From assembly GCF_910592395.1 (NCBI RefSeq), contig NC_088312.1, positions 21,025,292 to 21,089,291 on the forward strand: a stretch of 64,000 nt of DNA, in the 5' to 3' direction. This DNA is from Lineus longissimus (Eukaryota; Nemertea; Pilidiophora; Heteronemertea; Lineidae). The notes below the pieces were generated by a model. That model was given only the letters and a program-made list of their open reading frames with translations, ran no database searches and was not told the origin of the DNA. Each line of letters starts with the position of its first letter. The stretch's first letter is position 1. Shown piece by piece: positions 1,708 to 46,815 of this stretch. Position numbers and translations under genes: made by a program.

Positions 1708-1818
1708 ATCACAGTGACTACGATAGGTTACGGGGACACGGTCCCCCAAACGTGGATGGGGAAAATCGTGGCCTCATGTTTCTCAGTCTTTGCCATATCC
1801 TTCTTTGCCTTGCCAGCC
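1708..1818 (+). CDS. KCNQ1: KCNQ1 exon: selectivity filter and S6
   Basis: 111 nt, phase 0 at both ends. Acceptor is a pyrimidine tract ending TTTGCAG, donor GTAAGT. It encodes 37 residues starting [10 protein letters not shown] and ending FFALPA. The residue after GYGD is Thr, where human KCNQ1 has Lys. Confidence 0.97.
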
Positions 1819-4800
1819 GTAAGTATTATTTAAGTGATATCCCTCTCATCTCTACTGTCTGTTCCTCCTGTCCAGCACATTTGATGTAATGCCAGCCCGT
1901 CAGGCACCAATGTGGGACTTGCTGCTGTCATTTGAGGCCAATGACCGCACTTGCAGTGCCGAAAAGTTTTTTCAGGTCAAAAAAAGTTCTGATCACGTGG
2001 CAAAACGAGCTTTGTGTGAGATAATTGGTTGTGTCAAACACGTCGTGGTCGAGGTACGATGTGTCTGACCTCACAACACCCTCTCTTTTAAACACTGATT
2101 TTGTTCTCCAATTGTTCAATTCCATTCAATTTGACCTCTCTAATCAGGACACCTCTCTGTTGTAGACAGCACTTGTCTGTCCCAAGGGTGTCCCTCATAG
2201 AACTGTTCCATTTTAGTAAAGGTTAAAGAGAGTGTGTTCCACTATTTGCCTGTTAGTCCGGGAGCCATGGGGTTGAACGTGGAAATGCCGGATGAAGTTT
2301 TTTTCTTTGCTGTTTTCAATAGTATAGGGGGTCCTCATCAAGATTCAAGAGGGTGGCCGATAATATCCCTTGAGCAATTTTCAAAATATGCAAATTAGGT
2401 CCGCCATTACTGAAATTCCATTTATTGGCTATAACTCAAACATTATTAATGATAACATCATAAAAATTGTGTCGGCACCCATGTTTTCAGGGTATACGAA
2501 CAAGATAAGTCCATCACTACTCTATTTTAACATCTTACAGTCGACTAATGACGTTAATTATGCTAATTAGGTCCGCCATTACTGAAATTCCGTTAATTGG
2601 CTATAACTCAAACATTATTAATGATAACATCATAAAAATTGTGTCGGCACCCATGTTTTCAGGGTATTTGAACAAGATAAGTCCATCACTACTCTATTTT
2701 AACGCCTTACAGTCGACTAATGACGTTAATTATGCTAATTAGGCCCGCGCGCCATTACTGAAATTCCGTTAATTGGCTATAACTCAAACATTATTAATGA
2801 TATCATCATAAAAATTGTGTCGGCACCCATGTTTTCAGGGTATACGAACAAGATAAGTCCATCACTACTCTATTTTAACGCCTTACAGTCGACGAATGAC
2901 GTTAATTATGCTAATTAGGTCCGCCATTACTGATATTTTGATTTTCGGAATATCTCAGGAAATATGTAAGCAGATGTCAAAAACCAGTGTCCAATCATAG
3001 GTTATCTAGGCCTGTCTTTCAAGTAAGACTGTAACAGTATCGATTGCATGTGTTGCTGAACATTAAGGTACCGGTATGCATAAATAAGATGCCGTTGTGG
3101 CAAATGGTAAGACTACTTTACTCTAGCGCATACTATGGGGTAACATGCACAAAAGATAGTGCACTCCGAGCCATGACTGTTCACGCAACTACACCTTTTT
3201 GAACTACAAGGGTTCTTGCTCTTACAACCACAACGGATCATCTCCATTATGTAATCAGGGGCGAGTTTAACATCATCTGGAATGGCAATTGGTGTTAATG
3301 ACTTGTTGCTGGCCTTGTGTTGCTGGTATCCTTCTTCCATCCGAAGTCCTCTGGGTTTAGTTCGGGTAAATCATTTGTATCAAGGGTTCGCCACAGGATT
3401 GCTTGATAGTGGGCTCTCTTCACATTCTCTTTAAATGCCTCTCTTGTAGGTGGAAGCGTAGACAGGTTTGGTGTGGATGTATGCCCCTTGCCATTCTTTT
3501 TCCCCCGTACATATAGCCTGGTTTGTGACATGTCCTTTGTGTCCTTCACACCATAACAGGCAGACATGAAAGCGCTAGCTTGGTCCATGACGTCAGTAAA
3601 GGATGCATCTACAATCCCAATGGTGTTCAGCTTATATCCAGCCCTCAGGGATTTGACAACAGAACCCTTTCCTACTCCAAAACAACATGCCACAGTGTCA
3701 CAACCGGAAATAGCATGTGCAGGAAGGAGCTGCTTCACGATGTCGCGATGCCTTTCTACTGTCCGTTGTACTGCCCTGCCTTTACTAGGTGATTCCATCC
3801 TCATTGGTAGCTTCAGCTTTGCTTCCTCATAGTGGTGGACCAGAAGAACAAACACATCTGTGTCGTCTGCTACCACTGCAAGTCTCCTGGCTTCACTTGC
3901 GCACTTCAACGCTTGTTGCACAATAATGATATCGGCTTCTTCGTGATATGTCTCCAGATCATATCTAATGCTGATTTCGTCCTTCTTGATTTCAGTGGGG
4001 CACGGGTCTTCTCCAGTGACAACTAACTTGTGTTTCTCAGTGCTCCGATTGTGAAACAATCTGTCTGCAGTAAGATCACTACAGATGATTTTAATCAACT
4101 GTTTTTTGTTTTCAACATTTGACAAGATAACCTTCTGGGCAGGTAGTCTTGTTGTCAACAACAAGCGATGTGTACGGCTGACACCAGTCTCCCTGCCATC
4201 CCTTGTGACAGATTTTATACTGTAGTCATCGTATCTATCAAAGATCAGATAGACATCACTGTTCACCAGGTATGAAGCAACTCGCTTTTTAACGTTGGTG
4301 ACATAATCTTCCACAATACCATCTGCCGGCCAATGAATTGTCCATAAAAGCGCTGAGCCATCTATAACGGTTACATCTGCATCTCCGGCATTCCTGCTGG
4401 ACACCTCCACTTGAAGGGAGTTCTTCAGTGCTGATTTGCCTTTTGCAATACGCATCCCGTCTTTCTTGAACATTGAGGTTGGCACTGGAGCAAGTTCATA
4501 CGAAAGAACATCCTTTATGTGTAAGTCACGGTCACTTGCCAGCAAGGCAATAACCCTAGCATATATTGCATTGAGATCATATGCTTTTGTGTCGGCAACC
4601 TGTTTAGACTTGTCCACTACGGCCATAGTTGTAACCTTTTTTGATATGGTGTTATAAAAGCCACTGGGCAAGTCCTTCTCAAAGTTTGCAAGCATCGTTT
4701 CTCCAATGGACACTGCATCGTGCACATTCACTGCAGGTATAGCCACCCTTCCACTGGCAATGTTCACTATTCCATCGGGATGTTCTTTCGGGTCTAATGG

Positions 4801-44566: not shown

Positions 44567-45020
44567 ATGCCGAGTTATGGACGAGTTACACCCAACCCGA
44601 GAGTATGTCGGAAATTATTCGCGGACGATGGAGATATGGATGCAATTAAGGATGCGAAATGTTCGTTTGAAAATACGTTTAACAAAATTCTAGAGGAGGA
44701 AAGTTCTAGAGCTAAATTGCTCTATAACTTCGACCCGGATAATGGTCCAATGGCCACAACAACTGGAAGATACAATTGGGTTGCAATGAGAGGAGTCGAT
44801 GTCCCATCATGCTACCTTCACAAACCAAGGGATTTATACCCGAAATATTCAAACCAGGACAACCAGGATATGATTCCTTTGACTCAGAGTTTGCAGAAAC
44901 CGTGCGATAGCCAGTTAAGGGACAGTTCCACATCTAGTCAGGATGCCTCAACGTTTATCCGTCCAGAGAGTTCAGAAAAAACGCCTAGAAAAATACGTTT
45001 AAGGCAGAGCAAAGTAACTG
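44567..45020 (+). CDS. CDKN1: Cip/Kip gene exon 1 (CDK-inhibitor domain)
   Basis: 454 nt, ending with one base of a codon before donor GTAAGT at 45021. It encodes residues 1-151 including the whole cyclin- and CDK-binding domain. Reading through the donor would add only five residues (GKLTY), which is the unspliced alternative. Confidence 0.93.
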
Positions 45021-46815
45021 GTAAGTTAACCTATTAAATGGAACTTTTAGTTGGTCTCTTCTGTTAAACTTTTGATTTACAATATATACAGTTTACAAAT
45101 GTACTATTTCTGCAGGTTGGTAACGGTTGCGTTGGAGCATATCACCAGGGTATTCGTTCTAAATGTAGAGGTATCTATTTCCTGCATCATTAGCGGGCCT
45201 AGAAAGGTTATTTAATGGTGGACTCCACACAGCAGCTTGGAAAAATTCCTTTCTTGTACCAACTATATAGGACTATTACAAGTACATGCATGGTATGCTT
45301 TTTTCCGCTTATACCTTTTTTCCTCAAACGACAAAGACAGAAGCACCAACGTTAAGACTAACACCAGTGAAGTAACCTCGGAAATGTGACTATCATGGCA
45401 AGTCTTTGCAGACTTATTTTGCATAAACATTGCATTCGGGGTCTCAATGTTATGATGTAGCCATCCTCTCGCAAACAACGTCTACAACGTGTATAGCGGG
45501 ACGCGGTGGGGGATGTTCCTCCAATCTTTGCATAGGTCAACCTAGTTTTAGTGACTCCTTTTCCAGCGTTCAATCAGACGAAGGTTGATGGAACATCTTC
45601 CTGTTGGAATGTGAGCCTTCGTCTTTTAGTGTAGGCCTTGACATCGTTAACCATTTGCAGAGTCAACCGGTTATTTCATAATTTGTCTACTCGAATAGCA
45701 GGCCTATCGTAATTTTCATAGTACGTTCATAGTCTGATAGTATTACTACAACCGTAGGCCTGCACTAGTAAATTGATAGAGAAATATCGTATCCCAGGCC
45801 ATGTAAGGCCTAGATGACCCGGATATCGTAGCGGAATGAGAGAGGGGCGGGGCTCGTTATTTTACTGGAAATGGTTGCAGCGCGGTGGCTTTGGCGAAAG
45901 CTCGTGCATAAATATTGGGCACTTTTAGGCTTAGATTTCGCCAGCATGCCAGTGGAAAAGCAACTCTCTTTGAGTTTAAAGCGTTCCTGTTGGGAATAAT
46001 AATCAGAACCAACTGGAAAATAAGTCGATGTCCGTATCCATTTTGATCTTCCGATGTGGAAATATCAAGTTTTGGAACCGTCACCTCAAAATCATAATCT
46101 CCGAATCCATTGTATTGTGTGTTGCATGCACTTGTTCCCGAGGCCAAGAACAAATACACCATGTCCAATATGGGGTATTATCACAGCAAATAGTGTATTG
46201 TTTGATAAGTGTTGCCTGTGGAATGAGGTGGACTTGGCCAGTATCGCGTTGGGTGGATTGCATCGATATCTAAAAAAGCAACCATCATTTCGTGAGGATT
46301 ATTGAACTGGTTTCTCTCCTAAACGTCGAGAGGCGGAGTGTATTGAAAAACTCCTGATTATACGACGATCTCTTCCCAGCTTCTGACTCTTGGTGATACT
46401 GATAAAATGGCTAATTGTTGTCTCTCCACAAATGAGAGAATAAGTCAGAGAACTGCTGATGATTCCCATGTGCTATTTTTTCTTAACGCCACTGAAAGTG
46501 AAAATGCATCCTGAGCTTCTGGGCCTTGAACTTCCAGCGCTAATATTGCCTCCGTAGCCTCCGCCCAGACGCGCGTTGTCTGAATGATGCAAGCTAATGT
46601 GCTGAATGATGTGTGCGGGGAAGAAGCATACAAATCACCCTGGTATTCGAGGATGTTGAATATGTTGCTAAAGTATTCTTATGTATTTGTATTTTTCAGA
46701 ATTAATGAAAATCTCAAAGCCTAAAAGATCTCTTGAAACCTCAAAGCGGAAGCGACACACAGACATCTCAGCAGACGATAGAATAGCAAAGCAGACGAGA
46801 ATCGGTTTATCTTAG
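44567..46815 (+). CDS. CDKN1: Cip/Kip cyclin-dependent kinase inhibitor, p21/p27/p57 family (two exons)
   Basis: Nuclear inhibitor of cyclin-CDK complexes. Join 44567-45020 and 46700-46815: 570 nt, 189 residues plus TAG, close to the 198 of human p27. The N-terminal CDK-inhibitor domain shows the cyclin-docking RKLF (15-18, as in RNLF of p27), an amphipathic linker, YNFDPDNGP (53-61), GRYNW (67-71) and VPSCYLHKPR (79-88), matching the p27 segment that ends in FYYRPPR and inserts a Tyr into the CDK ATP site. A central Ser/Thr/Gln-rich part is probably disordered. T139-P-R-K is an ideal CDK site and could play the role of p27 Thr187. The C-terminus has basic clusters KPKR (158-161) and KRKR (167-170), a bipartite-type nuclear signal. 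The final QTRIGLS lacks the aromatics of a PIP box. Which vertebrate paralogue is closest cannot be told. Confidence 0.92.
45021..46699 (+). other. Intron of the Cip/Kip gene
   Basis: 1.68-kb GT-AG intron. A segment near 46325 (CGAGAGGCGGAGTGTATTGA) recurs in altered form at 58184, so it carries a fragment of a dispersed repeat. Nothing else is seen. Confidence 0.7.

Follow-up and report, generated by a model that had tools for sequence, protein, structure and literature searches.

In the 64,000-nucleotide stretch of the Lineus longissimus genome analysed here (contig NC_088312.1, positions 21,025,292 to 21,089,291 of the forward strand; hereafter the window), the 3′ portion of a KCNQ1 orthologue lies directly upstream of a gene that almost certainly belongs, on its sequence, to the Cip/Kip type of cyclin-dependent kinase (CDK) inhibitors. 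The same neighbourhood exists in human 11p15.5 and in the mouse Kcnq1-Cdkn1c region (the Beckwith-Wiedemann region), where KCNQ1 also adjoins a Cip/Kip gene. It is quite probable, overall, that this linkage was inherited from an ancestor common to this lineage and the vertebrates, and we lean slightly towards the view that it has been kept by CDK-inhibitor regulatory DNA located within KCNQ1, an explanation that takes the larger share of our confidence in inheritance.

The channel gene was modelled over positions 1708-30652 of the plus strand as eight exons with 324 open codons, running from the pore helix to the stop, and all seven internal introns begin with GT and end with AG. Six of the eight exons were recovered, every one on the plus strand, by tblastn with the human KCNQ1 and KCNQ2 proteins as queries. 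The last exon was located from its reading frame, while exon 8653-8788, the least certain of the set, lies in a poorly conserved linker and was placed by frame and splice-site fit. The window holds only the 3′ half of KCNQ1, with S1-S5 expected upstream of it. The elements of the model are as follows, with the human exons and introns for comparison.

1708-1818, plus strand: KCNQ1 exon, pore and S6 (...FALPA), 111 bp, presumably the length of human exon 7; tblastn, frame and splice sites
5421-5516, plus strand: KCNQ1 exon of 96 bp, presumably the length of human exon 8, with the end of S6 and the beginning of helix A; tblastn, frame and splice sites
8150-8387, plus strand: KCNQ1 exon, helix A/IQ region and linker; tblastn, frame and splice sites
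8653-8788, plus strand: KCNQ1 exon, linker; frame and splice sites
8789-11285, plus strand: KCNQ1 intron, 2,497 bp, GC content 0.37, which we take to correspond to the human intron with KvDMR1 and the KCNQ1OT1 promoter
11286-11361, plus strand: KCNQ1 exon, helix B, 76 bp, presumably the length of human exon 12; tblastn, frame and splice sites
11559-11653, plus strand: KCNQ1 exon, helix B-C, 95 bp, presumably the length of human exon 13; tblastn, frame and splice sites
12154-12256, plus strand: KCNQ1 exon, helix C-D, which we take to be human exons 14 and 15 fused into one; tblastn, frame and splice sites
12257-30532, plus strand: last KCNQ1 intron, 18.3 kb, observed/expected CpG ratio about 0.55, presumably placed where the human last intron is
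30533-30652, plus strand: last KCNQ1 exon, helix D and stop; reading frame and splice sites

The assignment to KCNQ1 is certain on the sequence, the match being beyond chance. Exon 1708-1818 encodes the selectivity filter TIGYGD (Ion_trans_2, E 3.9e-9), and the KCNQ C-terminal domain PF03520 scores 97.5 bits against a cut-off of 25. In a search of PDB sequences, KCNQ1 came first with 309 bits, followed by KCNQ5 (204), KCNQ4 (178), KCNQ2 (177) and KCNQ3 (157). Over 240 ungapped columns the channel showed 59.2% identity to human KCNQ1, compared with 45.0, 40.8 and 37.9% to KCNQ5, KCNQ4 and KCNQ2, respectively, and in the same columns human KCNQ1 itself is 40.4% identical to each of KCNQ2, KCNQ4 and KCNQ5. 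At the 35 columns diagnostic for KCNQ1 versus KCNQ2/4/5, the window channel has the KCNQ1 state in 26, the KCNQ2/4/5 state in four and neither in five. The tblastn match of exon 11559-11653 reaches 97% over 34 amino acids of human KCNQ1, its first two matched residues corresponding to the end of the intron. A tree of six sequences (JTT+G4, 200 bootstraps, leaving out KCNQ3 and invertebrate KCNQ2-5-type sequences) separated the window channel and the human and frog KCNQ1s from KCNQ2/4/5 with a support of 100/100, and on this tree membership of the KCNQ2-5 group was rejected. The distance of the window channel from the frog and human KCNQ1s fits an invertebrate source. In gene structure, six of the nine human introns 3′ of the pore exon have a match here that agrees in both alignment position and phase, one has the same phase within the unalignable linker, and two are absent. 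Pattern scans of prokaryotic and viral collections gave 15 and 5 hits with no KCNQ1 relative, and the other scans of these collections gave none, as expected. The age of KCNQ1 as a separate gene is already known, since KCNQ1-type and non-KCNQ1 genes are both reported in nematodes and chordates (Hill et al. 2008, PMC2597720).

Downstream, on the same strand, the second gene (44567-46815, plus strand) has two coding exons, 189 codons and one GT-AG intron in phase 1.

30653-44566, no strand: interval from the KCNQ1 stop to the Cip/Kip start, 13,914 bp
44567-45020, plus strand: Cip/Kip coding exon 1, 454 bp, with the CRKLF cyclin motif and the NFD...GRYNW...VPSCY CDK-binding region
46700-46815, plus strand: Cip/Kip coding exon 2, with a basic C-terminus (KRKRH) and the stop

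Its identity is good but not overwhelming. The Pfam CDI model matched the protein with E 0.0014 and 19.1 bits, below the curated cut-off of 25, which is a detection threshold and not a biological feature, and a search against PDB sequences at E<=10 listed 15 matches, all of them ribosomal L36/eL36 and none a Cip/Kip protein. A profile built from unverified human p21, p27 and p57 sequences nevertheless ranked the Cip/Kip frame first among the 619 open reading frames (ORFs) of the window, with E 1.8e-4 versus 0.44 for the next. On the same profile the spliced protein scored 16.4 bits, compared with a maximum of 9.4 in 10,000 shuffles of itself. Pairwise scores were 69 with p27, 56 with p21 and 39 with p57, values matched by 0, 1 and 20 of 3000 shuffles, respectively. 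The order of the motifs, CRKLF (which we read as the cyclin-binding RxLF motif), NFD, G-x-Y-x-W and P-x-x-Y, is retained, and a first coding exon of 454 bp followed by a phase-1 intron resembles the arrangement in human p21 and p27. In the p27 alignment, with residues numbered as in p27, the tyrosine at Tyr88 is kept while three contact residues are altered (Trp60 to Tyr, Phe64 to Pro and Phe87 to Cys). The C-terminal SSEKTPRK resembles the p27/p57 tail, with 52 (p27), 15 (p57) and 67 (p21) of 3000 shuffles reaching an equal score, and the likeness to the QT box is suggestive only. In these comparisons the protein is nearest to p27, and its gene, which probably predates the duplications, need not be a p57: p21, p27 and p57 would all be equally close relatives of a single gene of that age, and the p57 label therefore needs care. 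A sequence-only reading of this DNA had named the two genes KCNQ1-type and p21/p27/p57-family. Both names stand, the first on the 309 versus 204 bits and on the KCNQ1 versus KCNQ2-5 tree that it had called for, here run without KCNQ3, and the second on the profile rank and the shuffles, in spite of the low CDI score.

The adjacency itself, with both genes on the plus strand, 13.9 kb from stop to start and no other gene recognised between them, was also described in that reading, and our gene models and measured distance agree with it. As to intervening genes, a scan of 30,653-44,500 in all six frames with Pfam at E<=0.1 returned no family, which is the sensitivity at which the statement holds; non-coding, orphan or diverged genes could escape such a scan, and a diverged family could be missed just as CDI itself nearly was. 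The positive control, a KCNQ exon, was detected at 5e-13, and the interval gave no Rfam match. Between the genes, 32776-33555 of the plus strand is open for 259 codons, its translation having VGADD repeats and ending in a basic C-terminus, and a second open frame of 188 codons runs antisense to it; the first has no Pfam match and a weak codon signal. On the far side of the Cip/Kip gene, a Pfam scan of 46,816-64,000 (two plus-strand frames past about 61,000 being excluded) found no family over its cut-off, and the idea that other 11p15.5 neighbours lie in the window was rejected on that scan. Sub-threshold Pfam matches to DUF2863, IBV_3A, KIF21A_4th and CD225 were taken as chance.

In human, KCNQ1 and CDKN1C are convergent, with the 3′ end of KCNQ1 towards CDKN1C, whereas the window pair is on one strand. 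The 3′ end of KCNQ1 thus points to the CDKN1 partner in both lineages, which would place the flipped piece on the CDKN1 side, and an inversion there is probably the simplest change. The sequence-only reading had deduced at least one inversion; the shared strand on which it relied is confirmed, and we add the probable side of the flip. It had also proposed that the pair predates mammalian imprinting and might go back to an early bilaterian. The first of these was already published: for the IGF2-CDKN1C region, Ager et al. (2008, PMC2427030) cite high conservation from human to chicken, a species without imprinting, and they report tammar CDKN1C to be free of imprinting. The chicken and tammar regions therefore resemble the window in having the neighbourhood without CDKN1C imprinting, but both animals are vertebrates, and what the window would add is an invertebrate instance of the pair. 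Among the matches listed in the open-licence literature we found no report of a KCNQ1-Cip/Kip pair in invertebrates, and neither KCNQ nor CDKN1 is mentioned in the main texts of two synteny papers (PMC8851819, PMC6292497).

Why the two genes would have stayed together is not obvious from their products, which need not share a pathway: KCNQ1 encodes a voltage-gated K+ channel subunit, and a Cip/Kip protein docks on cyclin via an RxLF-type motif, here CRKLF, and blocks the CDK. In the explanation that we favour, enhancers of the CDK inhibitor would reside in the long 3′ introns of KCNQ1 and in its flank, as they appear to in mammals, breakage of the pair would harm the control of cell-cycle exit, and the genes would accordingly remain neighbours. 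Much later, in eutherians, an imprinting control element would have arisen within KCNQ1 and taken over this older neighbourhood. The 18.3-kb last intron of the window gene is on the side facing the Cip/Kip gene. In mammals, one clonal line with a hemizygous 2.3-kb deletion in KCNQ1 intron 15 is reported to show altered CDKN1C expression at the stage of endocrine progenitors (PMC9102014), and intron 2 has a proposed CDKN1C enhancer with a reported contact to CDKN1C in placenta (PMC8216465). Introns 10-11 are described as containing many enhancers, the heart enhancer studied there acting on Kcnq1 itself (PMC4333379). Regulatory blocks have been proposed as the cause of ancient gene pairs (PMC8851819), and together with the CDKN1C-related DNA in mammalian KCNQ1 such precedents make a regulatory block the likeliest reason for retention. 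The Wnt7-Atxn10 block described in the same paper similarly places a regulator next to a gene that is unrelated to it and has large introns; by comparison, the window pair is known from gene models, and its regulatory elements are predicted.

Several observations weigh against this explanation. Descent is argued from one invertebrate genome, the enhancers in the window's KCNQ1 are extrapolated from mammals, the position of the mammalian intron-2 enhancer would lie outside the window, a single pair that caught the eye only in hindsight carries little weight, and the orientation and the CDI score count on the same side. The ancestral neighbours may also simply never have been separated, with no function in their proximity. 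We regard this as possible, though clearly the lesser option: the window shows no sign of regulatory constraint, and PMC8851819 calls it unclear if microsynteny is due to functional constraint or simply to low recombination, but in mammals DNA acting on CDKN1C has been placed inside KCNQ1 itself (PMC9102014, PMC8216465). A coincidence, in which the genes shared at most an ancestral chromosome and became neighbours independently here and in vertebrates, seems unlikely. The differing orientation and the comparison of only two lineages would suit it, and shuffling within a conserved linkage group makes renewed adjacency less rare than the genome-wide value of about 1 in 10,000 that we roughly estimate; it sits poorly, however, with an interval free of Pfam-recognised genes and with the same end of KCNQ1 facing the partner as in human.

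The remaining alternatives concern the data more than the history. It is very improbable that the second gene encodes an unrelated short basic protein resembling Cip/Kip by chance; the CDI score, the L36/eL36 matches and the altered p27 contact residues are what one would then expect, but the first rank among the window's ORFs, the shuffles, none of which reached the profile or p27 scores, and the preserved motif order and the exon structure like that of human p21 and p27 are not. An assembly artefact joining unrelated loci is the least credible of all. The tandem repeats in the interval and the longer arrays at 58-64 kb could have favoured one; against this, the 64 kb contain no N, and a random misjoin would need to hit exactly this pair. 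The regulatory-block explanation can be extended to a fuller scenario, which we offer tentatively and consider rather doubtful as a whole: KCNQ1 and a single ancestral Cip/Kip gene would have made up a regulatory block that was older than the genome duplications of vertebrates and may date from the earliest bilaterians, the 3′ introns of KCNQ1 would have carried enhancers for cell-cycle exit, and imprinting of CDKN1C would have come about through a control element inserted into a gene body that already controlled its neighbour remotely. Should the pair be inherited, the neighbourhood beneath the best-known imprinting-disorder region would be far older than imprinting. Inheritance would also hint at the reason for the control of CDKN1C from within an ion-channel gene, and CDKN1C enhancers could then be sought in simple animals.

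The pair does not imply imprinting in the window. There is no CpG-island-like stretch in 8388-11285, which covers both candidate equivalents of the KvDMR intron; the 265-bp intron 8388-8652 is the less likely equivalent, the human exon coordinates favouring 8789-11285. Rfam, which we take to include KCNQ1OT1 families, gave no KCNQ1OT1 match at the gathering score in the window, nor at E<=1 in 8389-47000. In both respects the window differs from the human imprinted domain, where the KvDMR lies in a KCNQ1 intron. It also differs from chicken, where intron 10 of KCNQ1 is reported to have a CpG island (PMC2427030). By a loose criterion there are eight island-like stretches of 300-410 bp in the whole window, of which four fall between KCNQ1 and the Cip/Kip gene, and we see no grounds for taking any of the eight to be control regions. 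The idea that the pair brings imprinting with it was thus rejected, given the introns without an island and the lack of a match to the long non-coding RNA in Rfam; nothing positive in the sequence suggests imprinting here, and we would not expect it. The mean observed/expected CpG ratio was 0.61 in 1-30,652 versus 0.76 and 0.89 in the two stretches that follow (61 and 53 half-kb bins; Mann-Whitney p 6e-7). The depletion was strongest in the last KCNQ1 intron (0.54), the rest of KCNQ1 being at 0.71, near the interval value, and would be consistent with a KCNQ1 gene body that is partly methylated in the germline.

The introns of KCNQ1 contain further elements. On the minus strand, 3295-5037 is a 580-codon open frame without a Pfam match, presumably coding for a mobile-element protein. 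The last intron, in which a six-frame Pfam scan found no family over its cut-off, has a 160-codon frame at 19638-20120 (plus strand), also without a Pfam match, which we take to resemble the tail of a retrotransposon protein. At 13982-14233 there is a near-perfect inverted repeat with 100-nt arms, 97% complementary and 23 nt apart; four microRNA families match it below their gathering scores, and it is probably an element like the miniature inverted-repeat transposable elements. Tandem repeat arrays occur at 2387-2937, 21296-21968, 25325-25533, 58438-60402 and 63763-64000, with periods of 172, 301, 41 and 51-293 bp.

The last two arrays flank a cluster at 60701-63506 of the minus strand, in which genes for 5S ribosomal RNA (rRNA) and U5 small nuclear RNA (snRNA) alternate.

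60701-60819, 61876-61994 and 63388-63506, minus strand: three identical 5S rRNA genes (Rfam)
61334-61453 and 62844-62965, minus strand: two U5 snRNA genes (Rfam)

Plasmid records searched with the 5S/U5 stretch returned nothing. The repeat units are about 92-95% alike, and linkage of 5S with snRNA genes is known from other animals.

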